A stretch of 37,920 nt of DNA, from the IMG/VR virus record IMGVR_UViG_3300006917_000065, positions 1-37,920 of that record; one strand, 5' to 3'. The DNA is from a virus. Positions 19,474-37,920 of this stretch are shown piece by piece (the stretch's first letter is position 1; each line of letters starts with the position of its first letter). The position numbers and the translations under genes are program-made. The notes below the pieces were generated by a model. That model saw nothing but the letters and a program-made list of their open reading frames with translations, was not told the DNA's origin and ran no database searches.

Positions 19474-19502
19474 TTGAGCGTTCAGTTGAGGCATGCTATC
19501 AT
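19474..19502 (+). promoter_or_regulatory. Promoter of the intron-borne HNH gene
   Basis: TTGAGC (19474-19479), a 17-nt spacer and TATCAT (19497-19502), with TGC just before the -10 box, give a good extended promoter on the plus strand. Transcription would start near 19509, only about 8 nt before ATG 19517. The HNH gene can thus be expressed independently of, and antisense to, the capsid transcript. Confidence 0.55.
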
Positions 19503-20071: not shown

Positions 20072-20076
20072 CTATC

Positions 20077-20100
20077 AATGAACACTTTGGTTTATCCTCC
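20077..20100 (-). other. Putative MCP exon 1 and ribosome binding site
   Basis: GGAGG (20096-20100) is followed ten nucleotides later by GTG (20083-20085) and the codons TTC ATT, then a stop after two more codons in the unspliced frame. Joining GTG TTC ATT to AAC GAT TTT at the intron 3' end restores the MCP frame (M-F-I-N-D-F-P-K). U at 20077 would sit in a U.G pair with the guide strand, as group I 5' sites require. Spacing from GGAGG is a little long and other splice registers are possible. Confidence 0.5.
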
Positions 20101-20130
20101 AGTGTCAGTGTTTTTATCGGGTGAAAGATA

Positions 20131-20166
20131 AAGACACATGTGTCTTATCTAACAAAAATTTTAGCA
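20131..20166 (-). promoter_or_regulatory. MCP promoter candidate with 16-bp palindrome in its leader
   Basis: On the minus strand TGCTAAAAT (20158-20166) is an extended -10 candidate; the -35 is poor. Just downstream AAGACACATGTGTCTT (20131-20146) is a perfect palindrome with further pairing flanks (GATA/TATC). It could be an operator, a stabilising 5' hairpin of the capsid mRNA, or the 3' terminator of the preceding gene; the sequence does not decide. Confidence 0.4.
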
Positions 20167-20182
20167 GGTCGTAACTTAAAAG

Positions 20183-23497: not shown

Positions 23498-23531
23498 TAT
23501 TTGCCTTGTTTATTAATTAAATACTAGCAGC

Positions 23532-23867
23532 TCAAGAAACATATTTTCCATCAAAACCGAAAGAATATGGTTGCGCCATTAATCCACCCATGTTACCAAC
23601 CGCTTGAGTTCCTGGATAAAAAGAACCAATTAAAGAACTTGAATCAAGTCCAAAAGCAAGAGGCAATTGAGGCCCTGTACGTTGTAAAAAAATTTCACGT
23701 TCGTTAGGATTGTCGGTACCCATCCCCTTGTTATAGATTTTTTGTTGGCGAGCATCCCTTTTAAACGCCTCTGGATTAATGGCGCTGCCTTGACTGCCCA
23801 TAAAATTACCGCCTGCAAATAAATTGCCAGGTGCTCCAGGGACGTTAGATTCTCCGGCGTAATACAT
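23532..23867 (-). CDS. Small virion-like hypothetical protein (111 aa)
   Basis: Gly/Asn/Pro-rich sequence (MYYAGESNVPGAPGNLFAGG) with little predicted secondary structure beyond a basic helix (EAFKRDARQQKIYNKG). No family recognised. It lies between the AbrB-like gene and the portal gene with short gaps, so it is co-transcribed with head genes and may be a minor head protein. Confidence 0.55.
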   Translation of the reverse strand: MYYAGESNVPGAPGNLFAGGNFMGSQGSAINPEAFKRDARQQKIYNKGMGTDNPNEREIFLQRTGPQLPLAFGLDSSSLIGSFYPGTQAVGNMGGLMAQPYSFGFDGKYVS

Positions 23868-23892
23868 CTCTAAAGCTTTCAGTTTTTATATT

Positions 23893-24081
23893 CTACTCTT
23901 CTATAACCTCATACCCAGATGCATCATGGACTTTTGATAAAATAATCCCTTCGCTTCTAACGTCCCAATTAAGAATATCTCCTTCTTGCCAACCAAGCTC
24001 TTCAATTACCTCATCGGGAAATGTGATATACAACTCTCCGTTTTCGTCTTCTTCAATTTCAAGAATGTAGCTGCTGCTCAT
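23893..24081 (-). CDS. AbrB/SpoVT-like DNA-binding protein (62 aa)
   Basis: The whole chain is one swapped-hairpin domain: DENGELYITFPDEVIEELGW then QEGDILNWDVRSEGIILSKV, with the family's pattern of a Gly turn, a P-x-E-hydrophobic stretch, a GW-x-x-GD motif and a final strand. AbrB/MazE proteins bind DNA as dimers. Similar single-domain proteins are common in cyanophages, with unestablished function. Its start overlaps the upstream gene by four nucleotides (ATGA). A role in regulating late genes or as an antitoxin relic is conjecture; no toxin is next to it. Confidence 0.7.
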   Translation of the reverse strand: MSSSYILEIEEDENGELYITFPDEVIEELGWQEGDILNWDVRSEGIILSKVHDASGYEVIEE

Positions 24082-24371
24082 TTTGATAAAATCTTTTCCA
24101 TAAGCTTATCAAGCTTATTGTTGATTTCGCGAAAATTATCATGCATTTCTTTAATTTCTCTTAAGAAATCAACCTTTAAAACATACTCCATTGGCATGCG
24201 GTTAATTTGGTCTTCCAAAAGATCAATCCTTCTTTTTTGAGAATTTGTATAACTAAAAGCTTGTTGTATATCCTGGCTTTGACGAGCAAGAATTTTATTT
24301 GCCATCCAAGTGCCGCCGGTTACCGCAGAAATAAGTGCAGTTAAACCAATGGCTACGTACTCCGGTCCCAC
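24078..24371 (-). CDS. Membrane-anchored coiled-coil protein, holin-like topology (97 aa)
   Basis: Starts with GTG 24371. Residues 5-27 (YVAIGLTALISAVTGGTWMA) form one transmembrane helix, followed by about 65 residues of charged coiled coil (SQKRRIDLLEDQINRMP, REINNKLDKLMEKILSK). This layout, N-terminal helix and coiled tail, occurs in some single-span phage holins and in spanin-like or virion proteins. No other holin candidate for the lysozyme is as good in the window, but the distance from it (16 kb) weakens the idea. Confidence 0.55.
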   Translation of the reverse strand: MGPEYVAIGLTALISAVTGGTWMANKILARQSQDIQQAFSYTNSQKRRIDLLEDQINRMPMEYVLKVDFLREIKEMHDNFREINNKLDKLMEKILSK

Positions 24372-24400
24372 AACAAAAATGCTTTTTTCTAATTCTAAAA

Positions 24401-25927
24401 TTAGTAATCAAGTTGAAGTTGTCCTTTACGCGCCAAACCTGTTACGAGCCAGACGAGAGCGTCGACGCAATCGTCGTGACTGCTGACACCAAAATTTGTT
24501 AGCTCTTCAAACATATTAGTGAAGTTACGGTATCGATTAAAAATAATCTTGCGATCTTCAAACATACCCATAATTCCACGGAAGCGGGCCAACTTGTCGG
24601 CGCGGAATCCTTTAACAGGATGCCAAATCAAGTTGTAGAGGCTTTCTTGATTTAAACAGACACGCTTGAAGTCTGCCTCCAACGACGCTTGGTACTGAAC
24701 CGCCTCGCTCCAAATATCACACGTGGAATAAGTGGGAAAGTAATTATCGTTTGCATCCTTACCAAGGATGGACCAATCATTCAAAAGTTCTTTGAGGGCA
24801 TCTAATTTTTCAAGGTTGCCCATTACGCGCAACCGGCGGTAATCGATGATATGGATTCGATCACCAATACGGCCACCAAGAACCATCACCGTGTAATCGT
24901 TTTTCTCTTTAGTACCAGCAGACAGGTCAACCCCAACACCCAGTGTGTCAAACTCAGTTGCAATTTCGGCTTTAACAATCAGTTCAGGCGCAAGTGAAAG
25001 TTCATTCTGCCTGATGATTTGATTCATGTACTGGAAAGAAAAAGCAATCGGTGCCTGCCTCTTTTTTTCCTTTAAGTAATCCAATGACCACATCTCTGGC
25101 CAATATGAAATTTCCTCACCGGTTTTGGGATCGTTTTCAATTGCAGAAAGAACAATTTGTGTCCAGTTGTTTTGTTCGTTGAATGTCGTGGCATGAATAT
25201 CGTCATGGCGAAAGCGCGTACCAAGGCAAATGGCGCGGCCGCCCTCGAACATAGTGGGCGCAATCACCGCATTCCAATTGTCCTGCATCATTTTTCTGAT
25301 GTCAGGGTTAGAAATATCCGCAGCTGATTTGATGGCGTCATCAATCATGACCAAGTGCGAACGCTTGGAGGTCACCGAACCTTTGAGGCCTGCAGCGCAG
25401 AGCGTAAACTGTTCGTCACCAGTTACGTCAATACCAGCAAACTTATGATCAATGGACCAGTATTCGTTACTGGTAACGTTTTTTAAAAGCCGAACCTCAG
25501 GGAAAACTTCTTGGTAGCGTTTGCTTTCAATGATGCGTTTAATGGTTGCTGATTTAGAACGCGCAATGTCAACCGTATAAGACAAATAAAGAACTTGAAG
25601 TGGTTGTTTTGCTTGAGTGTGAATACCAATAGCCCAGGCAGTTAATAAACCAAGGACTGTGGATTTCGCGGATCCCCGTGGTGCAAGTAGATCAACGTTT
25701 GGACCAGCAATACGAAGAAGGCAACTGCTGTTTTCTTCGGTTATGAAATGGCGATGCCAGTTTTTATGGTGCTGAGCAGGAGGTTTATCAGCTACGTATT
25801 CACAAAAGAAACCAAAATCTTCTCGCGCCTTCTTGAGAGAATCAATATCTTTATGTGGTTTAATCGCATAGTTCTTGGAAGCAGCACGTGCGTTCCTGCG
25901 ATAAGCCAGATGAAGATAAGAAGGCAC
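24401..25927 (-). CDS. terL: Terminase large subunit (508 aa)
   Basis: ATPase part: Walker A LAPRGSAKST (residues 81-90), Walker B HLVMIDDAI (191-199, with Asp-Asp in place of the usual Asp-Glu), and the coupling motif GTRFRHDD (236-243). Nuclease part: GVGVDLSAG (331-339) with the first metal-binding Asp, and SSHDDCVDALVW (482-493) near the end, typical of the T4 gp17-like RNase H fold. Length is normal. The start is GTG 25927, without a clear ribosome binding site, and there is no other start for 200 codons. Role: ATP-driven DNA packaging and concatemer cutting. Confidence 0.95.
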   Translation of the reverse strand: MPSYLHLAYRRNARAASKNYAIKPHKDIDSLKKAREDFGFFCEYVADKPPAQHHKNWHRHFITEENSSCLLRIAGPNVDLLAPRGSAKSTVLGLLTAWAIGIHTQAKQPLQVLYLSYTVDIARSKSATIKRIIESKRYQEVFPEVRLLKNVTSNEYWSIDHKFAGIDVTGDEQFTLCAAGLKGSVTSKRSHLVMIDDAIKSAADISNPDIRKMMQDNWNAVIAPTMFEGGRAICLGTRFRHDDIHATTFNEQNNWTQIVLSAIENDPKTGEEISYWPEMWSLDYLKEKKRQAPIAFSFQYMNQIIRQNELSLAPELIVKAEIATEFDTLGVGVDLSAGTKEKNDYTVMVLGGRIGDRIHIIDYRRLRVMGNLEKLDALKELLNDWSILGKDANDNYFPTYSTCDIWSEAVQYQASLEADFKRVCLNQESLYNLIWHPVKGFRADKLARFRGIMGMFEDRKIIFNRYRNFTNMFEELTNFGVSSHDDCVDALVWLVTGLARKGQLQLDY

Positions 25928-25959
25928 GAATAATATTCAATCGGTTACTGAATACTAAC

Positions 25960-26121
25960 TCAACCTTCTTGTTCTTTGCGTTTTTTGTTTTGGTACTTCC
26001 GTGCTTTATCTAAAGCGGCCCGGCGTTTTTCTTTGTCACTCATCTCAGTGCCGTCCTCATTTTTTGCTTCTTTTTTCTTGAAATGTTCAAGAAGTTGAGG
26101 CGGCATTTTTCCTTTAGACAT
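25960..26121 (-). CDS. Small charged protein between terminase genes (53 aa)
   Basis: A frame from ATG 26121 reads MSKGKMPPQLLEHFKKKEAK and ends KYQNKKRKEQEG with TGA at 25960. It is nearly all Lys/Glu-rich helix. Similar short proteins beginning with a K-MPPQLLEHFKKK stretch occur next to terminase genes in phages, as I recall. Function unknown; its position suggests help in packaging. It was found by reading the gap between TerL and the small subunit candidate. Confidence 0.65.
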   Translation of the reverse strand: MSKGKMPPQLLEHFKKKEAKNEDGTEMSDKEKRRAALDKARKYQNKKRKEQEG

Positions 26122-26152
26122 AACAAATGTTTTTCTTTATTTTAATGTCCGT

Positions 26153-26707
26153 TTATTCTTCCAGCTGCATACGAGCCCAAACACTCATACTTGCTTCATG
26201 TAAAGGCGATTCAATTGGATCATCTTTGAAAATAAACATTAACTCACGAATGGCTCGATCAGCGCCAGCCATTAATAAACCTTTGCGATCTTTGGCGGAA
26301 GTATATTGCTCGACTTGATTAATTGTGCCGCGCAATTCTTTTTCCATTGCGGCAATGCGAGCAACGCCAGCATCACGTTTAACCGCATAATTTTCGATAT
26401 CATCACGTAGTTTACGAATGTCTTCTCTCATCTCCTCAATTTCCATGAGAAGCATTTTTCTGTGATCAGGTTTAGGGTATTTATTTTTGATCCAAGATTC
26501 ACATGAAACAATGTTACCCACATAACCAAGGAAGCGAGCGTAAAGAAAACATTCGATGAACGAATAGTTTTCTGCCGAAAAAGCATGAAAAGATTCTTGA
26601 ACCGCTTCAGGCTGTCTCAAAAACCATTCTTCAAAAACATTCCCGTCAAGATAAAAGGAATGTTGATTTTCTTTAATACTTGTAAGCTGCTTTTGCTGAA
26701 CGCTCAT
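26153..26707 (-). CDS. Probable terminase small subunit (184 aa)
   Basis: A mainly helical protein with a central coiled coil (residues about 90-140: LMEIEEMREDIRKLRDDIEN) and no recognised domain. Immediately upstream of TerL (with the 53-aa gene between) and of usual length for a small terminase, so that role is the best guess. The N-terminal region has no clear HTH, which the family often has, hence moderate confidence. Its start overlaps the end of the Gly-rich gene by 35 nt. Confidence 0.5.
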   Translation of the reverse strand: MSVQQKQLTSIKENQHSFYLDGNVFEEWFLRQPEAVQESFHAFSAENYSFIECFLYARFLGYVGNIVSCESWIKNKYPKPDHRKMLLMEIEEMREDIRKLRDDIENYAVKRDAGVARIAAMEKELRGTINQVEQYTSAKDRKGLLMAGADRAIRELMFIFKDDPIESPLHEASMSVWARMQLEE

Positions 26708-27620
26708 TCCATTCTTTTTGACGATATTTAGACGATTCTAGCTCGCCTAAAAGATTACGGAAAAGGTCAGGGTCAAATGCCCCGACATCTTGTTGTGATT
26801 CAAATGACTTAACCCAATCATCAAACTCACTTGTTCCTGCATCAGAAGAACTTTTTTGAACCGCGTTTTGAGCACTGTAGCTTGAAAGAGCTGTATCTAA
26901 ATCTTCTTGAGTAAGACCAGTTGACGTGATGTTTGCTAACGCGTTGTCTAAATCTTCTTGAGTAAGGCCAGGAGAAGAAGAAGAAGAAGAAGAAGCCGTT
27001 GCCTTGTCTAACGCGGCCTTGATGGCTGCATCTAATTCTTCTTGGGTATAGCCGCCAGGTTTATTTTGCAACGACTGTTTTGCAGCTGCTACAGCCTCTT
27101 TCTTTTTTGTTTGTAGATTTTCTACACGTGTATCTTTGCCAAGATCTTTTAACTTGCCGAGGATGTCTTTGAATTTACCTGGATCAGCAATACCAGAAGC
27201 AGTAGCACCTGAAATTAAACCTTTTGCTTTTTCCGTTAAAGATTGAACGCGCTCTTGTTTTTTTTCTTTTTGTTCTTGTTTGTTTTCTTTTTGTTTAGAA
27301 GAAGAAGAGCCAACGGAAGGGGTACTGGCTGATTGATAAGCTTTTGCTGCGGCTACTGCTTGACCAGCAGAAGAGGAACCGCCACCACTAGGGGAAGTTG
27401 GTGGCTTGGGGCCAGGAGTTGGCGCAGGGGGTGTAGGGTTGCCGCCACTTTTCCCACCGCCACCGCCACCTGACGGAGCGTTACCACCACCACTTTTCCC
27501 ACCGCCACCGCCACCTGACGGAGCGTTACCACCACCACTTTTCCCACCGCCACCGCCACCTGAAGGAGCGTTACCACCACCACTTTTCCCACCGCCACTA
27601 CTTTTTCCACCGCTAGCCAT
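26673..27620 (-). CDS. Gly/Ser-rich repeat protein (315 aa)
   Basis: Residues 1-60 are tandem repeats KSGGGNAPSGGGGGG; then a Pro-rich linker (PTPPAPTPGPKPPTSP), a charged helical part (SKQKENKQEQKEKKQERVQ), and residues about 190-260 with three related motifs (GYTQEELDAAI, GLTQEDLDNAL, GLTQEDLDTAL). The pattern of Gly spacer, helices and short repeats suggests a multivalent virion or assembly scaffold. GAGG precedes ATG 27620. The Gly-x-Gly-Lys-Ser strings are not a P-loop, since they lack a Rossmann-type fold around them. No family recognised. Confidence 0.65.
   Translation of the reverse strand: MASGGKSSGGGKSGGGNAPSGGGGGGKSGGGNAPSGGGGGGKSGGGNAPSGGGGGGKSGGNPTPPAPTPGPKPPTSPSGGGSSSAGQAVAAAKAYQSASTPSVGSSSSKQKENKQEQKEKKQERVQSLTEKAKGLISGATASGIADPGKFKDILGKLKDLGKDTRVENLQTKKKEAVAAAKQSLQNKPGGYTQEELDAAIKAALDKATASSSSSSSPGLTQEDLDNALANITSTGLTQEDLDTALSSYSAQNAVQKSSSDAGTSEFDDWVKSFESQQDVGAFDPDLFRNLLGELESSKYRQKEWNERSAKAAYKY
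27447..27600. repeat. 45-bp tandem repeat, three copies and a partial fourth
   Basis: Units begin at 27447, 27492 and 27537, with a partial copy from 27582 (ACTTTTCCCACCGCCACC at the head of each). Unit 3 differs from units 1-2 by one base (GAAGGA for GACGGA). They encode the KSGGGNAPSGGGGGG repeats. Near identity points to recent expansion by replication slippage. Confidence 0.9.
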
Positions 27621-27622
27621 AT

Positions 27623-27769
27623 CTATTCCTCTGAGTTGTATACAGGTTTTGCTTTATCCTCTTGCTGGGTTTTTGACTTTTTCAAAGTATCTAATAAATT
27701 TTTAAATCCTTGAATATCAAATGGAGCATCTTGAGATGACCCCTTTGGAGCAGAGGAATTAAAGTCCAT
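27623..27769 (-). CDS. Small acidic protein upstream of the Gly-rich gene (48 aa)
   Basis: ATG 27769 opens MDFNSSAPKGSSQDAPFDIQ, a short helix NLLDTLKKSKTQQ follows, and the frame ends NSEE with TAG at 27623. The last codons contain GAGGAATAG, which is also the ribosome binding site of the following gene, so the two are probably coupled. No homology recognised. Confidence 0.6.
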   Translation of the reverse strand: MDFNSSAPKGSSQDAPFDIQGFKNLLDTLKKSKTQQEDKAKPVYNSEE

Positions 27770-27801
27770 GACATTAACTAAAATTAATTATATCAGCAGC
27801 T

Positions 27802-28551
27802 TTAGAAAGCAGACGGGATTAAATTATAAAGATAATTAGCTTGTTGCATGCGTGCTTTTGTTAAATCAGCAGCCTGTTCCATTCTGGCACGACGTTCAGC
27901 GGATTTAGCTTGGATTTTATAGGGATCAATTTGTGCCATGTACTCAATTTCAGCAGGAGTCTTACCTTGACCTCCTGGACTGATACCTGCATAAATGCCG
28001 CTAACGGTCCCAGTGGTTACCGTTGTTATTTCAGGCGTAGCGCCTGTTTCCGTTACTGTAATAACAGGTTTTTTACCCCAGGCTCCTGTATTTGGGTCGC
28101 GGACATATTCGCCTTCACCCATAAATTTAGTGACTTGTTCATCTAACTTTTCTTGAGCAAAACCACTGGCAAGAATTTCACGTATATCTTTGGCGCCATA
28201 GCCAGCGGCTTGTGCTTTTCCAAGAACATCACCGGTGATAGCACCAGGTTTTACAAAATATCCACCTTGTTTTGTATAACCTTTTGTTTTAAATTTCTCA
28301 CGAAGATCTTTTGCTAGCTGGTCAGCAGCAAAAGTCCTGCCAACGGTAGAAAGGTAATCAGGAACATTTTCTGCACCTTTTGTAGAAGTTGTGTAATATT
28401 CTTTAGCTTTAGCAACTTCGCGTGCGGTAATTTTTTTACCTGCTTGGCCCGGTTTTTGAATTTCTTTTGTTAGTTCTTTTTTAGGTGCCCCAGAAAGCTG
28501 TACGCCTTTAATGCGCGCTTGTTCAATAAACGACTGTAGGGAATCGGCCAT
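27802..28551 (-). CDS. Hypothetical virion-associated protein (249 aa)
   Basis: Soluble, Lys/Ala/Gly-rich. The N-terminal half is helical (KELTKEIQKPGQAGKKITAR); the middle has GDVLGKAQAAGYGAKDIREI, the C-terminus a helix with Arg/Ala/Gln (QIDPYKIQAKSAERRARMEQ). No known domain. It belongs to a run of seven genes without standard names between TerS and the 1024-aa gene, all leftward and closely spaced; internal virion proteins are a reasonable guess. Confidence 0.6.
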   Translation of the reverse strand: MADSLQSFIEQARIKGVQLSGAPKKELTKEIQKPGQAGKKITAREVAKAKEYYTTSTKGAENVPDYLSTVGRTFAADQLAKDLREKFKTKGYTKQGGYFVKPGAITGDVLGKAQAAGYGAKDIREILASGFAQEKLDEQVTKFMGEGEYVRDPNTGAWGKKPVITVTETGATPEITTVTTGTVSGIYAGISPGGQGKTPAEIEYMAQIDPYKIQAKSAERRARMEQAADLTKARMQQANYLYNLIPSAF

Positions 28552-28590
28552 TTAACATCTATCCGTTACTTATCAGTATAAAAGATCTAA

Positions 28591-29325
28591 TCAACTGTAA
28601 TTTACAGTAGAACCCGGATTAAAACGGTAGGTTCCGGTAAACGTACCATCCTTTTGATATCCAACTCCATATTTACCTTCAAAAGGAAGATTAGCAGTAA
28701 AAGCAAGAGGATTTTTACGAATGTACTCAGGAGAAGACAACATCTTTTGACCTAAGAACTGTGAAAAAGCTTCCGGCGATGTCTTGCCTAAAGCACGCGC
28801 AGCTTCCTCTGTTGATTTAACATCTTCTTCTGTTAAACCAATTCCAAGGGCACGGGCTGCAAACTCCTGGAAAGGACGGTATTTTTCTACTGTTCCTTCT
28901 GGTGCTAAACCAGCTTTTAGACTGCCTAATTGTTGCGCAGTTTCAAACGCATTTGGAATGTTATACGATATTCCAAAATCTGCGTAAAGATCTGACGCCT
29001 CTATTGGGCTACGTTCACCACGTCCAACTTGAGCTGCAAGGAGGTCTGCATATTCATCAGCAGACTTTTTAGTTATTTTTTCTGTTTCCTGAATTTTTTG
29101 AACCGGAAAATTACCAATACGCCTTAATTCGCGTATTGCCGATTTTAAGCCTGAGCCTCCTTTCTTCTTGACTGGCTCTTCTTGTTTTACGCCAAAAAAA
29201 CTTCCAAGTTCAGTAACAGGCGCAATACCTAATTTTTCTTCAATTGCACCAAGGCGATCAGATACTTCGGTATCTCCTCCTTGAGTACGTTTTGTAAAGT
29301 AATCAAAAAAAGGATTATTTGCCAT
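28591..29325 (-). CDS. Hypothetical virion-associated protein (244 aa)
   Basis: Charged N-terminal part (IRELRRIGNFPVQKIQETEK) followed by helices and a C-terminal beta-like region ending GYQKDGTFTGTYRFNPGSTV. No domain recognised. GC- and gene-order context as for its neighbours. The ATG at 29325 follows AAAGGCACC, a fair ribosome binding site. Inference: minor or ejected virion protein. Confidence 0.6.
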   Translation of the reverse strand: MANNPFFDYFTKRTQGGDTEVSDRLGAIEEKLGIAPVTELGSFFGVKQEEPVKKKGGSGLKSAIRELRRIGNFPVQKIQETEKITKKSADEYADLLAAQVGRGERSPIEASDLYADFGISYNIPNAFETAQQLGSLKAGLAPEGTVEKYRPFQEFAARALGIGLTEEDVKSTEEAARALGKTSPEAFSQFLGQKMLSSPEYIRKNPLAFTANLPFEGKYGVGYQKDGTFTGTYRFNPGSTVNYS

Positions 29326-29355
29326 GGTGCCTTTAAATTATTTTTTTATTTTAAA

Positions 29356-29874
29356 TCACGCAAACAAAGCAGAGGGGGGCACAAAACCAGGCATTGCGTT
29401 CCTGAGGCGATCTTCATAACGTTCAACTGAACGTAACGTATTAAATGCAGGGTTATTTGCTTGAATATTTGCTTTTTGAACTAAATCTCTAGCTTCGTTT
29501 AAGCGGGCAAGAGCACTGCCCGTAGTTCCTTGATACCGAGAAGTAAGGTAGTCGTAACCAAAACCAGCTTGTTTTCCTCTTAATGATGCAACAGCGCCAA
29601 TTTCCGCAGCTTGCTTGGTAGAAGCAGCAGCAATTCGTGCGGCTTCTTCAGTTGCTTGGGCTTGTTCTTTTGCTGCTTTTTCTTGCGCAGAAGCACCAAA
29701 GATAGATGCTCCGATACTTGCAATACCTAAGCCAATTGAAAAAGGATCCATGCCAGTAGGTGTAGCTGATGATGATATTGGTGAACCAGTAAAGCCAGTT
29801 GATGAGACTGGAGAAGAAACGTTTAAATAACTAGTATTTGGAATACTACTTAACGGTGTGCCGAATCCAGCCAT
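29356..29874 (-). CDS. Internal virion protein candidate, T7 gp14-like layout (172 aa)
   Basis: Residues 42-62 (MDPFSIGLGIASIGASIFGA) are a short hydrophobic segment, followed by a long Ala/Gln/Glu helix (SAQEKAAKEQAQATEEAARI) and a Tyr/Arg-rich C-terminus. That order, short disordered start, Gly-rich membrane-like segment, long Ala-rich helix, resembles the small internal core proteins of T7-like phages that are ejected to line the DNA entry channel. Sequence identity to that family cannot be judged here. Confidence 0.5.
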   Translation of the reverse strand: MAGFGTPLSSIPNTSYLNVSSPVSSTGFTGSPISSSATPTGMDPFSIGLGIASIGASIFGASAQEKAAKEQAQATEEAARIAAASTKQAAEIGAVASLRGKQAGFGYDYLTSRYQGTTGSALARLNEARDLVQKANIQANNPAFNTLRSVERYEDRLRNAMPGFVPPSALFA

Positions 29875-29894
29875 GACTTAATTATATGTCAGTA

Positions 29895-30350
29895 TTAAAT
29901 AAAAGTTCGACCACGAGGAATATCAATGGCTGGCATTGAACCGTAAGCGGCACGCATTTGGTCTGGGATGTTTGCCAAGATCTGGAGGCGAGGTGCGTTG
30001 TAACGCATCTGCGCCAGGTTGCTTCCAATTTGAGTAATAGTTTGCGGAATGCTTGCCATTAAGTTGTACTGGAAGGCACGTTTGTCGCGCTCAGCTTGGA
30101 TCTTGGCGGCACCAGCAGCTTCTTCTGCACGGAACTCTTTCATTACCTTGAGAAGTTCACCAAAACGCGAAGGGTCATTATAAACGTCCTCGCGTTTACG
30201 GTTTAAAAGTAGAGCGCCCGCAATATCGGGACTCATTTTATTTAAAATTTCTTGCTCCCAGGGTTCATAAGCACCCGCTTGTGGTGTCATTGGATTACCC
30301 AAGCCAGCACCCGCTAATGAAAAAGCTCCGAACGAAGAATTGTCTGCCAT
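29895..30350 (-). CDS. Hypothetical virion-associated protein (151 aa)
   Basis: Helical in the middle (EPWEQEILNKMSPDIAGALL, EEAAGAAKIQAERDKRAFQY), with a Gly/Ala-rich N-terminus and an Arg/Pro-rich end (ANIPDQMRAAYGSMPAIDIP). No known domain. It lies 10 nt from the glycine-zipper protein gene and is probably co-translated and packaged with it. Confidence 0.6.
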   Translation of the reverse strand: MADNSSFGAFSLAGAGLGNPMTPQAGAYEPWEQEILNKMSPDIAGALLLNRKREDVYNDPSRFGELLKVMKEFRAEEAAGAAKIQAERDKRAFQYNLMASIPQTITQIGSNLAQMRYNAPRLQILANIPDQMRAAYGSMPAIDIPRGRTFI

Positions 30351-30360
30351 GATCTATTCC

Positions 30361-31281
30361 TCAACCAATAGAAATGTTTGGCGCACCAAGAGCAACCGTA
30401 TAAGGATTGCTGGCAAGCACTTGACGCATTGTTGCCCCACGCTCACGTTGTGCACCAAGAGCGAGGTTGGCTTGTGCACCAACCATCATTTGTTGAATAT
30501 AAGCGTTGTTCTGCGTATTAATCAGTGCTTGAGAGCGAGTTAATTGATCATTAGCAAGCTTCGTGGTAATTGGAAGCATTGCTTTTTGCATATTGATTTC
30601 TTGATCATTTTGGAATTGAGTTAAGTCCTTAAGATTGGACGTAGTCATCCCCATCATGGTTCCGTAATAATCCAGCTGACGTTTCTGGTTACGGTTCATG
30701 GCATCCTCCATGGATGCTTCCGCATTTAAGTTGATGCGCCCCAGGGGGGTGTCAATATAACGAGGAGGCTGAGCTACTTCAGTGCCAGCTTTACCCGTAG
30801 GTGGTTTACCGGTGTAAGCAGAGACTACTGCTTCTGCAGCACCACCGCCAAGCATGCCGCCAATTGCAGAACCAGCAAGACCACCAATAACGGTACCAAC
30901 AGGTCCAACAAAAGATCCGAGAGCAGCACCAGCGGCACCACCTGCTGCAGAACCAGCCAAGCCGCCAACGGCTTCAGCGGGACGACCTTCCATCAAGGAA
31001 GGAATTGCCATCAGTGCGCCACCGGCAAGACCACCGCGCAAGCCAGCTCGCATCGGCTTATTCTTAATGTATTCGCCTGCGCCAGCAGCTTTCTGTTTAA
31101 CCGTTTCAAAGGTAGTGCCAGCGCCAGTTTGAAGGTTTGTTACAAAATCTTGCAAACCTTGTTGAGCGCGTGCACGACGACCCTGGGGCTGAGCGCCGCC
31201 ACCCACCTCAATTACATCACCGGAGATTGGATCTCCCATGTAAGTTTTACCAGTGGATGGATCCGTAAAAATGCGAGCCAT
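30361..31281 (-). CDS. Glycine-zipper virion protein (306 aa)
   Basis: Residues 80-147 are a long glycine zipper (AGSAAGGAAGAALGSFVGPV, GTVIGGLAGSAIGGMLGGG), a membrane-inserting oligomer motif. The first 25 residues (MARIFTDPSTGKTYMGDPI) look like a short beta part that may dock to the virion. The C-terminal 110 residues are helical with Gln/Asn (LTRSQALINTQNNAYIQQMM). Probably ejected with the DNA to form a pore or channel through the host envelope; that is inference from the motif. Confidence 0.65.
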   Translation of the reverse strand: MARIFTDPSTGKTYMGDPISGDVIEVGGGAQPQGRRARAQQGLQDFVTNLQTGAGTTFETVKQKAAGAGEYIKNKPMRAGLRGGLAGGALMAIPSLMEGRPAEAVGGLAGSAAGGAAGAALGSFVGPVGTVIGGLAGSAIGGMLGGGAAEAVVSAYTGKPPTGKAGTEVAQPPRYIDTPLGRINLNAEASMEDAMNRNQKRQLDYYGTMMGMTTSNLKDLTQFQNDQEINMQKAMLPITTKLANDQLTRSQALINTQNNAYIQQMMVGAQANLALGAQRERGATMRQVLASNPYTVALGAPNISIG

Positions 31282-31303
31282 CTATTTGATTATTTCTTAT
31301 ATC

Positions 31304-32236
31304 TTAAATTTTATCAGCACTGATTTCGTATTCAGCAACTGTTGGTAGTTTTGGCCTATTGGCAGATGCGATTATTTCGTTTGTGATATTACCTGTTGTG
31401 ATGCCAGCGACGGAGCCTGTAAGCCCGCCAATAACACCACGGACAAAACGTTGTCTTGGAGTGCCGGCCATGCGAGCACCTATTGCCGCACCTGCAGAGC
31501 CACCGGCAAATGTTGTAACCATCGGAATATTGACTGGATAACCCAGCAGTCTGGCTTCTGGATGACCCTCAAGATTTTCTGGCGTTACTTTGAGTACGCC
31601 AAGCAAACCCTTGTCTTGATAATAATTACGCAAGAAATTACCGTAACGTTCTGGGGTTAAATCAGGAATATCTTTTTTAGCTTCTTCGTAAGCTAAAGGA
31701 CGACCGGTGCGTCCAAGGAAGAAGCGCTCAAATAGTTCCAGGGCAGGTTGATCTGATTTACGGCGATCTTCTGATCCTTCTTCTGCGTACTGCTGAGCAA
31801 AACCTGCTTGACGAAACTGTTCGCCAACATTAGTAATGTCATAAGCACCAGCAACTGCCGTTCCTGGTATAGCAACAGAAGAAACTAAAAGACCACGTTT
31901 TAGTGGTCCCAGCTCCTTAGCCGCTTCTTCGCCAATTGCTTTTTCTACAACTTTGTCAGCAATAGCTAAAGGATGGTTGTAACGCCACCAAAGACCACGT
32001 GTGCCATCATTGGTTACATCAGCGGCCAAACGTGCAGTATAAGCACCAAGGAATTGCACAGGCGTCTTGCGTGCTGTAACACCCTCTGCGGCAAGAGTTT
32101 TTTTGAATTGCGGAGAGCCAATAAATAAATCGTATTGATTTGTTTTATGCAAACGTTGTGTTACACGTTCACCTTTTTTAAGTCCTTCTTTGTAATTTTT
32201 AGGTACAAGAGAAGAGAGAAACTCAAGTGGGTTCAT
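31304..32236 (-). CDS. Membrane-active virion protein with C-terminal glycine zipper (310 aa)
   Basis: N-terminal two-thirds soluble and Arg/Lys-rich (LKKGERVTQRLHKTNQYDLF); residues about 238-295 hold two Gly/Ala segments (TTFAGGSAGAAIGARMAGTP, GVIGGLTGSVAGITTGNI). Its start shares an A with the stop of the 192-aa gene (TAATG), so they are translationally coupled. Fits the same ejection set as its neighbours. No family recognised. Confidence 0.6.
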   Translation of the reverse strand: MNPLEFLSSLVPKNYKEGLKKGERVTQRLHKTNQYDLFIGSPQFKKTLAAEGVTARKTPVQFLGAYTARLAADVTNDGTRGLWWRYNHPLAIADKVVEKAIGEEAAKELGPLKRGLLVSSVAIPGTAVAGAYDITNVGEQFRQAGFAQQYAEEGSEDRRKSDQPALELFERFFLGRTGRPLAYEEAKKDIPDLTPERYGNFLRNYYQDKGLLGVLKVTPENLEGHPEARLLGYPVNIPMVTTFAGGSAGAAIGARMAGTPRQRFVRGVIGGLTGSVAGITTGNITNEIIASANRPKLPTVAEYEISADKI

Positions 32237-32814
32237 TAGACAGCTCCTCCCATTGACACCATTTGCTCAATGTAGCCAGGGGGGAGATTAGGTAGCATTT
32301 TTGTTACCTGCGCACGGTAGCTATCAAGGAAGGTTTGTTCAATACCTTGAGCTTGGAATTGCGTGCCAGGTGCAACCGCTTGGGGGACTTGCAGTTCATT
32401 GATGCCTTGGCGTTGCATCATTTGCTGCATAATCTGTTGTTCTTGCGAGATCTGCGTTGGTGTTACTTGTGGTTGAGGCATCAAGCCTCCCATTAATGCT
32501 TCAGTTGCAAATGGAGAAATTAAGGATCCACCAAGATTAGCTGCGCCTTCCAAACGTGAATGCGCCATCTCTGGCTCGAACTTGCCAGGTTCTACCTCAA
32601 TGCGACGGCCTGTTGGTTTTGGTGGACGCATCCGACGTGCGGCCAGCGTTAAAGGAAGCGCTGTTACCAAGTCACCTAAGCCGTAAGCAAAACCTACCCC
32701 TGGCCCTCCTGCCATGGCACCAAACCCGCCAGCCAACGCGCTACCTGCTGCAACATTAGCAACTACGTCTTTATTTTTAGACGCATAATTAAGCAGGCGA
32801 GAGAACGGGTTCAT
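32236..32814 (-). CDS. Membrane-active virion protein (192 aa)
   Basis: Residues 19-60 are a hydrophobic Gly/Ala-rich stretch (AAGSALAGGFGAMAGGPGVG, then LGDLVTALPLTLAARRM), followed by a Gln-rich helical part (ISQEQQIMQQMMQRQGINEL) and a Pro/Leu-rich end (TKMLPNLPPGYIEQM). It overlaps the following gene by one nucleotide. Role in DNA delivery is inferred from the company it keeps. Confidence 0.6.
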   Translation of the reverse strand: MNPFSRLLNYASKNKDVVANVAAGSALAGGFGAMAGGPGVGFAYGLGDLVTALPLTLAARRMRPPKPTGRRIEVEPGKFEPEMAHSRLEGAANLGGSLISPFATEALMGGLMPQPQVTPTQISQEQQIMQQMMQRQGINELQVPQAVAPGTQFQAQGIEQTFLDSYRAQVTKMLPNLPPGYIEQMVSMGGAV

Positions 32815-32852
32815 ATTGTCTACCTATATTGTTTTATTTTAATTTGATTATC

Positions 32853-33383
32853 TTAAACAGATACGGAACCTTGAGGGTTTTCGTTAATAAGATCCGGTAG
32901 TTTTGGAATTTCCGTATTTGTCCCTTGACTTATCATGGCGGCAAGATAACCATTGGGATCAAGATTATCTTGGCGTGGGAAAGGGTTTTTAATTTTTTCG
33001 TTTGGCGGAATAACCGGACTTAAGCTATACGAATTATTCCACCCTGGATTGAAATCAGGTTGTTGCTCTGGATAATTTGGAGTGGACGGACGGCCAATCA
33101 TGAAATCGTAATCAGTTTCCATATTGAAACGCCCTTCGCCAGGAAACATTACATATTCATCTTGAGGCTCCCCTTCTGGAAGAAAATTAAGTTCATTTAA
33201 AGTCAAACGTTTATTTGCAATGCGTTTAGTTAAATCTTGCGGACCAAAACGGGACGTAATCCAGGGAGTTTCTTGTACAGCCGCTTTGAGATCATACTGA
33301 TCTTTAAAGTTTAATTTTTTATCTTGATTACCGCCAAACTTAATGTAGTCACTTGGCGAAGTGCGCGGCTTATCTAGTTTCAT
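32853..33383 (-). CDS. Hypothetical protein, disordered Pro/Asn-rich (176 aa)
   Basis: Polar, Pro/Asn/Asp-rich sequence (YPEQQPDFNPGWNNSYSLSP) without hydrophobic segments; the N-terminus is basic (MKLDKPRTSPSDYIKFGG). No family recognised. It starts on an ATGA overlap with the basic 70-aa gene and is probably a virion linker or scaffold-like protein. Confidence 0.55.
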   Translation of the reverse strand: MKLDKPRTSPSDYIKFGGNQDKKLNFKDQYDLKAAVQETPWITSRFGPQDLTKRIANKRLTLNELNFLPEGEPQDEYVMFPGEGRFNMETDYDFMIGRPSTPNYPEQQPDFNPGWNNSYSLSPVIPPNEKIKNPFPRQDNLDPNGYLAAMISQGTNTEIPKLPDLINENPQGSVSV

Positions 33384-33592
33384 TTACCTTTCTTTTTCTT
33401 ATGTAAGCCTACCAGGGTTTTACGGAGGTTTGCTTGTTTAACCGTTTTGGGATCGTATTTATCAGGATTAGATAAAACATTTTCTTGAAGTTGAGCTGTA
33501 CTGATGCCGCGAGATTTAGCTTTGGCGGTGAAGGCGCCTTCCTTCATATCCATGCCTTGGATCCATTTTTTGTCTTTCTTTTCTTTAGTCAT
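33380..33592 (-). CDS. Small basic KWIQ-motif phage protein (70 aa)
   Basis: KKDKKWIQGMDMKEGAFTAK and QANLRKTLVGLHKKKKGK recall a widespread group of short basic phage proteins beginning with a K-W-I motif, with A-F-T-x-K-A-K and an R-x-x-L-x-x-L end, that lie among structural genes and have no assigned function. About a third of residues are Lys or Arg, so DNA contact inside the head is possible. Overlaps the next gene by four nucleotides. Confidence 0.65.
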   Translation of the reverse strand: MTKEKKDKKWIQGMDMKEGAFTAKAKSRGISTAQLQENVLSNPDKYDPKTVKQANLRKTLVGLHKKKKGK

Positions 33593-33594
33593 GA

Positions 33595-36500
33595 TTAACG
33601 GTTACGACGTTTACCAGCGCGACGCCCAGCTTGAGCCATCAGTTGTTGAGTAACTACTTCTAAATTAGATGGAAGTGGTTCAGAAGAAACTCGAGGTTCT
33701 GTAGCTTTAATTTTAGCAAGCTCTTCTCTTAAAGCTTGAAGTTCTGATCCTGCTCCCGTGGTAGCCGGTTGTAGAGAACGTTGCAACTCACCAGGGCGCC
33801 TTGGAAGTAACGGGCCCATGCTTGCAACACCTAAAGGTTCATCGCCAAAATCTTTGCGTTGTTCCCAATCAATGTCACTTTCACCCATTCGAGCCCAATC
33901 TTCTAAGCTCTTAGGAGATTCGCGAATATCGAGGGAAGGAGGGCCAACGGTTTTACGTGCAAGCCTTGGTTCAACAACAGAGCCACCAGAGAATCCAAGG
34001 GATTGAGCTTCCTCTCTTGAAAGGTTATAAACTTCACCTGTTCTTTCATTAACCGTTACAAATGATTTGCGAGCGGGTCGGCTGCGTGGGCGACCAATTA
34101 CATTCTCAATAAATTCAAAAGCCGTTGGTGAATCAAGGACCGGTAATGTAATTCCTTTTTGTTCTGCTAAATAACGGTTGGCAATTTTACCAAGTTCAGA
34201 ATAATCTTTTATACCAGTACTGTCTTTTAAACCTTTTAAGAAACCGGACAGTTCATCACGCTTGATTTGAGCAAGAGAACTAATTGGCTCTCCAGTATTA
34301 GCATTCAGGACTTGAAGAGGAGCTTGTACAATTGTTTCAGCTGCTTCATATACGTCAGAGAGAAAATCATAAGGTTCGCCGGTTTTAGAAGAAATACCTT
34401 GTTTACGAATTTGAGCTATTGGTTGTGAACCAAAAGGACGCTTAACCGACATTGGTTGCGTCATGATGTACTCACGTTGCTGTGCTGGGGAGACATACAA
34501 TTCTGCTCCCGTTGGATCCTTGGCGACCCCAAGTTGATCCAGCTTGCGAAGAGTTGGAATATTTATTTCCATTAATTCACCTGATTCCGTGGGAACCATG
34601 GTTTTATTGATTAGTATTTCATCGCCAGATGCTTTTTTGTATGTGCCGTAATAAAGGTCATAGACAGGTTCACGTCCTGCAGGTTCTGCAGTTCCGCCAA
34701 CAAGCCGTCCTTTTTGAGAACCACGACCAAAAGAAGGTGTTACATCTGGTTCCCCACCAAGATTTTCTACAAGTTGAAAATAAGGTTGTTGCGTAGTTTC
34801 TGCAATGTATTTATCAGCCACGTATGGAGTAACAATCTTTTGATGGGCGCGTACCAAAGCGCGGCCAGTCATTTTGTAATGTTCTGCATCCAACCGGTTT
34901 TCAATTGTTGGATTAGCTTCTGCAACAGCAATTGCTCTATTTTTGTCGACCAAGAAAGGAACATCTAAATTCATACGTTCGCCACGTTGAATTGCTTCAA
35001 CCGTATCGGGAGGAAGAACATCGCGATAAAGGATGGTTTCAGTCCTGGAAACCAATTCACCAGCTTCATTGAGTCCTTCAACCTTTTGGAGCCGTACGGG
35101 CATATCAAGGTCAAACTCATCAACAATACGATTGCGTCGTGCTGGACGAGTAATAAAACTTTGATTGCCGGCAAGGTGAGAGCGTACCTGTTCATCCCAA
35201 TAACTACGGAAGTTATTGATAGCTGTTTCATATTGTTCAGACTGAGCCATAGGAACAGCTGCTGTACTTACGCCACCCGTTAAACCAGTCAGTGCTTGGC
35301 TAATTGGTTCCCATTGTTCTTCGTCTTGACTACGTGTACGAATAGGTTTTGGTTGTTGGGAAGCAAAAGCGGAACGTCTGATTTCTCCTTCGGGAAGAGT
35401 TTCGTAAGTTTCTTTGCCGGCGTAAACAGTACGTTGCCCACCAGCAAATTCACCTGCGATTAAGTTGCCAGAACGATCAAATTCAGGTTGAACAATGTCC
35501 AGGGTACGGGCAAAATTTTGAGCGCCAACAGTATTTGCGTTATAACCTGGGTCTAAAAATTCTTCTTTGCCATATTGAGCATATGCATTAATACGTGCAT
35601 TAACTTCAAAATCATCCAGTCCTGCCTCATACAGTTTTTGTAATGCAGGAGACGGCTCTCGCCGCCCCGCCCGAACACCTGATAGCGCCATTGTTTTGCG
35701 CCGTGCACGTTGCGCAACTTGATCTTCTCCTGACTCAACAGCATTAACTTGCTGTACACGAGCCTGTTCGTTACGGGCTTGATTAAGTAATTGGTTTTGA
35801 ATATCAGTTAATTCTGAAAAAGATCCAGGTTGAATTGCACGTGTGGGCAATGGTGTTGAAGGAGCTTCTATTACAGGACCTTGACCGGAGCGCAACTGTT
35901 CCAGGAATTCCGCACCTAAAACACGTTTTTCTTTAACATCCTCTGCTGAAACTAAACGACGATATAAAGTTTCGTTTTCTTCCAGGAATTTATCAACGTC
36001 TAATGGAATTGTTTGTTTTGCTGGCTCGGCACGAATTTCGTTAAGAAGGTTGTCAACTAGTTGTTCATTTTGTTTGGCAATACGAGATTGACGCGAAAGC
36101 TCTGCGCCATATTGGAATGGAGCAGCTCGTTCATAATCTTCCTTGTAACGTTGAATAAGTTCATCCGCAATATCGACAGTGGATTGAGGAATTGCCGTAC
36201 GTTGTACAGAAGACGCTGGAACCATGCGCCCATGACGACGCACCATACGTTCTGTTGGGGTTTGCTTGGAAATATCAACAGTTGCAGGAGCTACAGCCGG
36301 AATAGAAGGCGGAGGTGGCGGAGTGGAAGGTGCAGGTTCTTTAGCTGCACGGCGAACAGCCTCTTCCATGTCCGCAAGATTGACTTGGCGTACACCAGCG
36401 GTTGCGGATTTGGCTGGTCCTTTAGGAATTTGACGCCCACGACCCATTAATGCCCTGGCGCCAAAGCCTGCACCTAGTAATGCACCCAAGCCAAGGGCTG

Positions 36501-36669
36501 CAGTACCTAATGTGGCAAGTGGATTTGATTCTTGTTGTGGTGCTCTGAGTTGATTACGGCGAAATTCAAGAACTTCTGGCGCCATCTGCGCTCTTTCTTC
36601 CGGATCTTCTGGGATTGGCGCTCCAGTGGCGCGGCTGTAGGCGTAAAAATCAACAGGAGAAAGCGCCAT
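33595..36669 (-). CDS. Largest virion protein, internal or tail-type (1024 aa)
   Basis: First gene of the leftward cluster. Residues 51-75 are a Gly/Ala hydrophobic segment (LATLGTAALGLGALLGAGFG); the rest is soluble, mostly helical and charged with Pro-rich linkers (about 115-135, PAPSTPPPPPSIPAVAPA), containing no enzyme motif I can identify. It could be the large ejected internal protein of a podovirus-type virion, or a tape-measure-like protein. The short Gly-rich segment followed by long helices favours ejection. A perfect palindrome stands 8 nt before its ATG. Confidence 0.7.
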   Translation of the reverse strand: MALSPVDFYAYSRATGAPIPEDPEERAQMAPEVLEFRRNQLRAPQQESNPLATLGTAALGLGALLGAGFGARALMGRGRQIPKGPAKSATAGVRQVNLADMEEAVRRAAKEPAPSTPPPPPSIPAVAPATVDISKQTPTERMVRRHGRMVPASSVQRTAIPQSTVDIADELIQRYKEDYERAAPFQYGAELSRQSRIAKQNEQLVDNLLNEIRAEPAKQTIPLDVDKFLEENETLYRRLVSAEDVKEKRVLGAEFLEQLRSGQGPVIEAPSTPLPTRAIQPGSFSELTDIQNQLLNQARNEQARVQQVNAVESGEDQVAQRARRKTMALSGVRAGRREPSPALQKLYEAGLDDFEVNARINAYAQYGKEEFLDPGYNANTVGAQNFARTLDIVQPEFDRSGNLIAGEFAGGQRTVYAGKETYETLPEGEIRRSAFASQQPKPIRTRSQDEEQWEPISQALTGLTGGVSTAAVPMAQSEQYETAINNFRSYWDEQVRSHLAGNQSFITRPARRNRIVDEFDLDMPVRLQKVEGLNEAGELVSRTETILYRDVLPPDTVEAIQRGERMNLDVPFLVDKNRAIAVAEANPTIENRLDAEHYKMTGRALVRAHQKIVTPYVADKYIAETTQQPYFQLVENLGGEPDVTPSFGRGSQKGRLVGGTAEPAGREPVYDLYYGTYKKASGDEILINKTMVPTESGELMEINIPTLRKLDQLGVAKDPTGAELYVSPAQQREYIMTQPMSVKRPFGSQPIAQIRKQGISSKTGEPYDFLSDVYEAAETIVQAPLQVLNANTGEPISSLAQIKRDELSGFLKGLKDSTGIKDYSELGKIANRYLAEQKGITLPVLDSPTAFEFIENVIGRPRSRPARKSFVTVNERTGEVYNLSREEAQSLGFSGGSVVEPRLARKTVGPPSLDIRESPKSLEDWARMGESDIDWEQRKDFGDEPLGVASMGPLLPRRPGELQRSLQPATTGAGSELQALREELAKIKATEPRVSSEPLPSNLEVVTQQLMAQAGRRAGKRRNR

Positions 36670-36676
36670 AACTTTT

Positions 36677-36778
36677 AAATACGTATTTTTTAGTTCTTTG
36701 ATGGTTACATTCTAACTTTGGATAATTAAAAAATGTAAGTATCCTGTAAACTAAGGAATATAAACCGTTAACAACGGT
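36677..36778. promoter_or_regulatory. Divergent intergenic region with two dyads
   Basis: Between the 1024-aa gene (leftward) and the 70-aa gene (rightward) lie a 12-bp perfect palindrome AAATACGTATTT (36677-36688), eight nucleotides from the leftward ATG, and an inverted repeat ACCGTT-aac-AACGGT (36764-36778) fourteen nucleotides before the rightward ATG. The rest is AT-rich and holds promoter-like text (TTGGAT...TATCCT, 16-nt spacer, about 36718). These are candidate operators controlling the switch between the early and late arms. Confidence 0.45.
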
Positions 36779-36791
36779 AAAGAATACAAAA

Positions 36792-37004
36792 ATGGACGAA
36801 GCACTCAGGGAAAGGCGCGAAAACGTACGTCAAGTTATTGATCAACGCGCCAATGAACTGCGCGAAGGGGGTATGCATCCCTTTGAAGTCCAAAATCTAC
36901 GGTCAGCCGCGAACCAAGAGTTGGCTATGGCTGTGCCAGATACCGAAAAATACCAACAAGCGGTTAATTTAGCAACTCAGTACGTACAAAAAGGCGCCGC
37001 ATAA
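36792..37004 (+). CDS. Small helical protein (70 aa)
   Basis: Charged, almost wholly helical chain (MDEALRERRENVRQVIDQRA, NQELAMAVPDTEKYQQAVNL) with no known domain. It is a one-gene unit: an inverted repeat before it and a strong terminator 27 nt after its stop. Early regulatory or DNA-binding function is possible but not shown. Confidence 0.6.
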   Translation: MDEALRERRENVRQVIDQRANELREGGMHPFEVQNLRSAANQELAMAVPDTEKYQQAVNLATQYVQKGAA

Positions 37005-37031
37005 AACAACACTGTAATTTTTACGTTAAAC

Positions 37032-37055
37032 GCCGGGGTTACACCCGGCTTTTTT
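37032..37055 (+). terminator. Rho-independent terminator
   Basis: GCCGGG (37032-37037), a six-nucleotide loop and CCCGGC (37044-37049) followed by TTTTTT. This ends the 70-aa gene's transcript. Confidence 0.9.
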
Positions 37056-37279
37056 GTGTAAATTCTTGGGGTAAGTAGGGCATTTACATACAAATTAGGG
37101 AAAATAGTACATATTTATACAAAAAACGGGCCTATATAACTCTAAAAAAGGTACAAAATTACCTGACTCTTCTCCCACACCCCAACCGAGAGGGGATACG
37201 GAGAGAAAAAAAGAAGGAGGGGTATAGGTATCGGGGGCTGCGCATCCGTAGCACGCAGGAAACCATCGCGTTTAATTCA
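37056..37279. other. Non-coding stretch with purine-rich tract
   Basis: I see no gene here. After AT-rich sequence (37080-37155) comes a purine-rich strand from about 37190 to 37235 that includes CCCC/GGGG complementarity (about 37182-37197) and GAAGGAGGGG, a Shine-Dalgarno-like string without a start codon in range. A promoter for the 93-aa gene is probably in the AT-rich part (CTATATAACT near 37133). An origin or packaging-related role is not supported by more than composition. Confidence 0.35.
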
Positions 37280-37561
37280 ATGCAAACGAAACAGGCTAAG
37301 CGTTGGCAACACGACTGGCGTCAGCAGGTCGGGGAGCGCCCGACGCAACAGAATGCTGAGCTTTTCCACAGCTACGTGGAATTTGCTTATCAGATGTTGG
37401 AGGAGCTTGGCTCCGCCGACTTCGTTTATAGCGATCTGCGTCAGGTATGCCAACCCCAGTACTTATTCCAGGTGGTATGTGACATGCAAGGCGATAAGCT
37501 GAGCATGCGTATCCACCAGGATAAGGACGGACTTAAGGTCGTCGTGATCCACAAGATCTGA
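37280..37561 (+). CDS. Hypothetical protein (93 aa)
   Basis: Begins MQTKQAKRWQHDWRQQVGER and ends QDKDGLKVVVIHKI: a basic N-terminus, a helix and a beta hairpin, which could be a small nucleic-acid-binding or ribosome-associated type of fold. No family recognised. It is bracketed by the terminator at 37032 and another at 37574, so it is another single-gene unit. Confidence 0.6.
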   Translation: MQTKQAKRWQHDWRQQVGERPTQQNAELFHSYVEFAYQMLEELGSADFVYSDLRQVCQPQYLFQVVCDMQGDKLSMRIHQDKDGLKVVVIHKI

Positions 37562-37573
37562 CGGTTATCTATT

Positions 37574-37594
37574 CCCCTGGTCGCCCAGGGGTTT
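37574..37594 (+). terminator. Terminator after the 93-aa gene
   Basis: CCCCTGG (37574-37580), loop TCGC and CCAGGGG (37585-37591) followed by TTT and an AT-rich stretch. A good stem with a short U-run, 12 nt after the stop. Confidence 0.75.
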
Positions 37595-37813
37595 ATATAG
37601 CCCTCATGTAGTGAGTCTTCCAATCATTATTTCTCAATTGTCACGGTTTCCTGACATTTCGGTTGGATGTGGCGCTACGCTCCCCCGCGGGCGAGATAGG
37701 ACAGTGAGTTTTATGCAACTTGGTTAATCCCGATATCAAAGGTCGGGATTTAAGCAGTGTACTCGTCGAGCTGGACGTTAAACGCAGCAGACAACTTAGG
37801 TGGTAGGTCACCA
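37595..37813. other. Gene-free region (part of a 307-nt gap)
   Basis: No reading frame of note. It holds a stem AATCCCGA (37726-37733) / TCGGGATT (37743-37750) with a 9-nt loop, followed by TTAAG, which could be a terminator in either direction or part of a small RNA, and a GC-rich patch with CCCGCGGG near 37685. I find no tRNA. The promoter of the gene at 37869 must lie in this gap. Confidence 0.4.
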
Positions 37814-37868
37814 GGTGTTCTTGGCATCCACACTTCAGTGGTGTAAGCCCAAGCTACCGGAGAACACC
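37814..37868 (+). promoter_or_regulatory. Structured leader covering the ribosome binding site of the right-most gene
   Basis: GGTGTTCT (37814-37821) is perfectly complementary to AGAACACC (37861-37868), the eight bases directly before the GTG start at 37869. Inside, TGG/CCA (37822-37824, 37849-37851) and CCAC/GTGG (37828-37831, 37838-37841) pair, giving a nested stem. The GGAG ribosome binding site (37859-37862) overlaps the end of the outer stem. A translational switch (protein-bound, ligand-bound or temperature-sensitive) is possible; only the pairing is seen. Confidence 0.5.
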
Positions 37869-37920
37869 GTGACCATCAACCCCACCAAGCTGCTCTCTCG
37901 TGAAGAGGTTGGCGACAAGA
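37869..37920 (+). CDS. Start of a gene running off the right edge
   Basis: GTG 37869 opens VTINPTKLLSREEVGDK (17 codons in the window), preceded by GGAG at six nucleotides. Too short to assign. It uses GC-rich codons (CTG, CTC, CGT, AAG) unlike the AT-rich genes before it, as in the capsid genes, suggesting strong expression. Confidence 0.5.
   Translation, partial: MTINPTKLLSREEVGDK

Follow-up and report, generated by a model that had tools for sequence, protein, structure and literature searches.

The mRNA of phage lambda cIII takes up two alternative conformations, one of which hides the translation start. In phage T4, the genes e, soc, 49 and I-TevI have the Shine-Dalgarno (SD) sequence and/or the start codon within a helix, and 30S binding is reduced (PMC3014915). 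Conserved leader RNAs have also been described from cyanophages, namely the manA, wcaG and PhotoRC-II motifs, the named carriers of the first two being T4-like phages (PMC2864571), and intergenic CUUCGG/GUUCGG hairpins are found in T4-like and phiEco32-like phages (PMC8948821).

The leader analysed here lies at the extreme right end of a virus record of 37,920 bases (a 37.9-kb IMG/VR fragment, henceforth the window) and may work like the start-sequestering hairpin of T4 gene e; as in that type, its SD and/or start codon are predicted to be base-paired, with support from covariation. With lambda cIII it would share two mutually exclusive folds, one of them start-hiding, and we know of no sequence relation between the two RNAs. 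As far as the T4 hairpins are characterised in PMC3014915, the likeness is that of a phage mRNA with its SD and/or start codon in a helix, whereas the stem described here surrounds a separate conserved hairpin (P2), is common to several genes and has no known late promoter in the fold. Like the manA, wcaG and PhotoRC-II motifs as presented in PMC2864571, it is a conserved leader RNA in phages of cyanobacteria, but neither the window nor eight relatives gave an Rfam match to them. P2 resembles the CUUCGG/GUUCGG hairpins in being recurring, intergenic and phage-borne, and differs from the forms given in PMC8948821 in that it is defined by an internal loop (GGCA/GUAAGYCC) and variable stems and not by its loop sequence.

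The sole deposited-phage match found for positions 20000–37920 was Synechococcus phage S-EIV1 (22% of the stretch, 75% identity), and the viruses carrying the leader are a group infecting freshwater cyanobacteria, related to S-EIV1. S-EIV1 was rejected as the origin of the complete leader, there being no DNA match to the right end of the window and, among deposited phages, no protein match for the 93-aa upstream protein or the 76-aa protein found downstream of some leaders. The only Rfam 15 match in the window was a group I intron elsewhere (RF00028, 93.5 bits, 19257–19498, minus strand); ARAGORN also reported a tRNA-Leu (gag) at 21566–21658 on the plus strand, inside a 749-aa frame of the opposite strand and probably false. 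The preliminary description had placed the leader in a gene-free gap of 307 nt before the right-most gene, behind two other hairpins. The gap is there (37562–37868), and so are the hairpins, one terminator-like at 37574–37591 and the other formed by AATCCCGA and TCGGGATT at about 37726–37750; the terminator scan found two terminator-like sites against 0.3 expected in shuffles. Only 17 codons of the downstream gene precede the contig end, and these first 17 residues are identical to the 53-aa proteins of L017, L054, L090 and others (L-numbers denote loci compared with the window).

Table 1. Features of the right end of the window, in order of position.
Feature	Coordinates	Strand	Basis or remark
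Upstream gene, 93 aa	37280–37561	+	anchor for finding relatives
Terminator-like hairpin after upstream gene	37574–37591	+	terminator scan
AGGACAGT, candidate phage promoter motif (putative)	37698–37705	+	motif recurrence
Optional hairpin CCCGA..TCGGG	37726–37750	+	sequence; similar hairpins in part of the relatives
P0 element CGTCGAGCTGGACGTTAAACGCAGC	37764–37788	+	exact core in 40 viral stretches
P1 hairpin GGUG/CACC, competing; 3′ strand also in mask	37799–37812	+	folds; weak covariation
Mask stem, 5′ strand GGUCAC	37806–37811	+	predicted fold and covariation
Eight-base stem, 5′ strand GGTGTTCT	37814–37821	+	sequence; window-type leaders only
P2 hairpin CUUGG-CA-U-CCAC..GUGG-UGUAAGC-CCAAG	37820–37853	+	covariation and recurrence
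SD sequence GGAG	37859–37862	+	sequence
Eight-base stem, 3′ strand AGAACACC	37861–37868	+	sequence; eight bases before GTG
Mask stem, 3′ strand GUGACC (start codon and codon 2)	37869–37874	+	predicted fold and covariation
Start of downstream gene, cut by contig end	37869–37920	+	53 aa in relatives

Searches with the upstream gene gave three and then 16 viral loci (61–95% identity), some of them identical contigs. By inspection the leader is present in L133, L134, L139, L140, L141 and L143, the usual P0 being missing from L133, L134 and L139; in the stretches inspected it is absent from L002/L003, L004 and the L135–L138/L142 group (one sequence type), and L132 and L144 end too early for its presence to be decided. 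L003, the nearest relative by the upstream gene, has a different leader with a local-hairpin mask and a seemingly homologous small gene. A search with the conserved P0 core retrieved the stretches counted in Table 1, and from all loci at hand 35 distinct leader versions were extracted, a count that leaves out leaders not fitting the search expression. The search pattern GGAGAAYACCGTGACC was dropped as too common to inform, two of its loci being kept for other features. Known families were rejected for both the leader and P2, since no Rfam match reached the gathering score: Rfam 15 matched nothing in eight relatives, the leader region gave one chance-level match at E up to 10, and L343 gave none at E up to 1. 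A tRNA or tmRNA identity of the leader was likewise rejected, as ARAGORN reported none in the eight relatives scanned. Searches of open-licence PubMed Central papers turned up no title or abstract start describing the leader or P2.

The feature that first drew attention to this locus, a perfect complementarity between the eight bases before the GTG start (37869–37871) and a segment upstream, is exact (GGTGTTCT with AGAACACC). Of 75,560 window positions, counting both strands, 67 have an exact 8-nt complement at this kind of distance, and only one has the two-part 6+8 complement of this leader. The fold of 37800–37885 has an energy of −31.9 kcal/mol (z −2.97), equalled by none of 200 shuffles. 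In it the stem is predicted to be longer than had been described, GGUCAC pairing with GUGACC over the start codon; this start-codon stem, here called the mask, adjoins the eight-base stem, and both enclose P2. Two smaller inner stems had also been proposed: CCAC/GUGG (37828–37831/37838–37841) has comparative support, but in place of the second the relatives form CUUGG/CCAAG (37820–37824/37849–37853), which shares two bases with the eight-base stem.

That a fold covers the ribosome binding site and probably acts on translation is supported by covariation in relatives, which is seen in the start-codon stem and in P2 but not in the eight-base stem itself. The latter is no conserved feature: among the 35 versions it occurs only in the window, L054, L111, L164 and L368, where pair 46–98 fails in one of the five and pair 50–94 in three. 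In these five versions variation falls on two of the eight pairs, every time as an uncompensated mismatch; in the adjoining start-codon stem one change is compensated (the rows are few, and no measure stands out from its shuffles). We therefore place the comparative support in the start-codon stem and regard the eight pairs as a local extension of it.

Comparison of the leaders shows that the strands on either side of P2 are complementary, the later one comprising the start codon, the region preceding it and the first codons, and that compensatory changes preserve this predicted pairing. The start-codon stem appears as GGUCAC/GUGACC, GAUCAC/GUGAUC, GUUCAC/GUGGAC and AGUCAC/GUGACU, and in L202 and L233 quite different mask sequences are still paired over an AUG. 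For 24 rows hand-picked from the 35 versions and aligned with MAFFT (ATG types, some near-duplicates and L133/L139, which fell out of register, were excluded), 98.6% of the cells in the stem 37–42/106–111 are paired; two of its pairs show double changes, and L051 and L143 have one mask mismatch each (2 unpaired cells). For this alignment the covariation score was reached by none of 500 shuffles, a count that is not a probability, the rows being related, and slid versions pair 24–47% of cells against 92%. We also exchanged partners among one leader from each of the 11 start-region types, scoring each pairing of a pre-P2 strand with a start region (−8 to +15) by its duplex energy. Cognate pairs averaged −18.47 kcal/mol, permuted ones −13.50 (sd 1.03), and 0 of 5000 permutations were as good (20 of 5000 for the eight GTG types alone, and 3 of 2000 in an earlier run with a shorter core); as the leaders are related to each other, such permutations overstate independence. 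An energy of −15 or lower was found in 30 of 35 leaders and in 11 of 297 other SD-bearing starts of the same loci. Pairing of the start codon averaged 0.94 in 19 leaders versus 0.78 with the 5′ strand shuffled, and was not clearly higher than in such shuffles in L051, both L166 copies and L260. Taken as sequence comparison, this makes the mask well supported, and argues for a modular start-masking leader, common to several genes, that has been maintained by evolution.

In 14 of 15 leaders at least two bases of the mask strand also belong to the 3′ strand of a second hairpin, P1. In progressive folds, before the start region has been transcribed, the 5′ strand lies in P1 or in a hairpin containing P1; once codons 2–5 are present, the mask becomes the energetically favoured form in seven of eight selected leaders, and in the eighth (L260) P1 stays, with the first codons paired alongside. 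A true two-state switch between P1 and the mask is thus plausible in these models, and we go no further than that because P1 covaries almost not at all (its score was reached by 100 of 500 shuffles) and some leaders have only a weak form of it (in L139 and L197 it is weak or broken).

P2 is an uncatalogued recurring hairpin without Rfam match. It has an outer stem (CUUGG/CCAAG, elsewhere CUGGG/CCCAG and others) and an inner one, P3, together with the bases GGCA and GUAAGYCC. When the unpaired bases were the sole criterion, 39 loci (371,011 nt) gave 24 P2-like matches, a few of them clearly not P2; pairs 1–4 of P3 form in 23, 23, 22 and 21 of these, with several pair types, and pairs 1–3 of the outer stem in 23, 22 and 20. 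In the 24 aligned leaders two P3 pairs have changed on both sides, each in 11 rows. P2 also stands before many other phage genes, with several copies per genome, including starts whose following region is A/C-rich and open. Outside these leaders, an ORF start lies within 90 nt of 112 of 126 copies (median 28.5 nt), the copies coming partly from loci retrieved by P2 patterns, which also take in chance matches. S-EIV1 itself carries an unannotated P2 (KJ410740, about 40728–40785, minus strand), lying 16 nt ahead of AHV82193.1, whose start is annotated at 40711. Further copies stand directly before apparent tRNA genes, judged by eye, in L235 (8083), L205 (5649) and L155 (8005).

P0 is nearly invariant, with one double change (in L270), and also precedes genes without P2. 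It is a candidate RNA pseudoknot (CGUC/GACG plus GCUG/CAGC) or a candidate near-palindromic DNA operator; being near-invariant, pseudoknot-capable and near to a DNA palindrome, it could be either a promoter/operator or an RNA structure. Of 49 distinct regions, 20 have the motif A[AG][AG]ACAGT no more than 160 nt upstream of P0, against 0.4 in shuffles. A scan for promoters of the sigma-70 type found none, and the phage's own promoter type may differ. Inspection led us to reject P0 as a short-peptide frame ending in TAA, the upstream frame not being common to all. With up to three mismatches P0 was found in only six of 201 genomes of the family of a P0-holding picocyanobacterial genome, and it was rejected as a general host element. 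P0-like elements precede a conserved, apparently non-coding stretch in the picocyanobacterial genomes L380, L383, L385, L387, L388 and L389 (in L388 with a 6S RNA about 300 nt upstream), and L390 has two in one genome, 45 nt apart (1501–1569).

By inspection, the leader heads a family of 52–53 or 75–76 aa with a shared C-terminus and five other small proteins, hence at least six different ones. PHROGs and Pfam gave nothing reliable for eight proteins (six downstream, two upstream window genes). Small hairpins around the SD and start, such as ACAGGAGnnnCCTGTG, CACGGAGnnnCCGTG and CATGGAGnnnnCCATG, were seen in L129, L133, L135, L139, L140, L141 and others (15 distinct versus 0 in a shuffle; some may be intragenic). 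At the other end of genes, tRNA-like elements extend from a stop codon to just before the next leader, as in L002 (6699), L004 (6713), L139 (5818), L140 (6111), L143 (6330), L366 (4720) and others. They have an acceptor-like stem of 6–8 bp, a T-arm with a 7-nt T-like loop (e.g. TGCAAAC or ATCGAAT) and one small hairpin replacing the other arms. Nineteen distinct elements were found in 34 loci versus 0 in one shuffle, one or two seeming spurious. With 389 loci there were 76 candidates, 54 of them at an open-frame stop codon (300 of 3000 for random positions); under a strict definition none was found in S-EIV1 or the window. One speculative and rather improbable picture is a genome-wide post-transcriptional layout, in which many genes end in a stop-codon tRNA-like element and begin with P2/P0 about 28 nt before the start, host tRNA-processing enzymes could cut one long transcript into separately controlled messages, and the window's masked leader would be a switchable form.

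For the window we consider that this is probably a modular 5′ leader of a short phage gene whose default state masks the start of translation; a factor that opens or holds it would be likely to land on P2. In full-length mRNA, mask pairing would be the stable state and keep ribosomes off, and the gene would therefore be off or low by default; such repression by the mask would follow from general knowledge of initiation. During RNA synthesis, and if stabilised, P1 might be closed by the 5′ strand instead, leaving the start free. A phage or host factor could bind P2, the most strongly conserved of the modules, and set the balance, which is the least certain step.

A strong default-off structure such as the mask could also serve timing by transcript ends, in which long early transcripts would be masked and silent, and a later promoter or an RNA cut would yield translated forms without the 5′ strand, the T4 genes e, soc, 49 and I-TevI being known cases in the account of PMC3014915. 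However, the stretch from P1 to the SD showed no conserved promoter motif, and P2 fits a promoter poorly because it covaries as RNA; we hold this possible but unlikely. As long bulged stems are typical RNase III substrates, the 5′ structure might serve stability or RNase III processing, start masking being a side effect or relieved by cleavage. The position of P2 some 28 nt before many starts, even where the next region is A/C-rich and open, would suit such a role, yet stability alone needs no stem that tracks the start codon and codons 2–5 through sequence change, which leaves this reading distinctly unlikely. That the energy of the whole leader was unremarkable in four of six tested (relatives and window; z −0.52 to −1.50), and that GC-rich leaders form strong folds by chance, would agree with a chance fold; covariation and the partner swap contradict it, and it is the most improbable of these explanations.

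The preliminary description had offered a translational operator or a small riboswitch-like element. The invariant unpaired GGCA and GUAAGYCC, and the possibility of a second fold, would be compatible with a metabolite riboswitch having P2 (perhaps with P0) as aptamer, and glutamine riboswitches do exist in marine phages, being, as presented in PMC9004378, likewise phage-borne cis-acting RNAs. Of the riboswitch-like idea, the covarying fold over the start stands, but no Rfam riboswitch matched the leader, in which it differs from the glutamine riboswitches; P2 is also small, stands ahead of many different genes and has several copies per genome, features more in keeping with a protein or processing site. 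A riboswitch proper is accordingly quite improbable. Autoregulation by the downstream product is known in phages, with T4 gp43 and gp32 as examples given in PMC3014915, but an operator for the product of a single gene is unlikely here because so many different small proteins follow the same leader, and we give autoregulation a very low probability.

The masked leader adds a covariation-backed candidate for translational control in a little-studied group of freshwater cyanophages, and P2 a recurring RNA module that, lacking an Rfam match, is now open to searches and assays. A factor bound by P2, if there is one, could control many phage genes at once.
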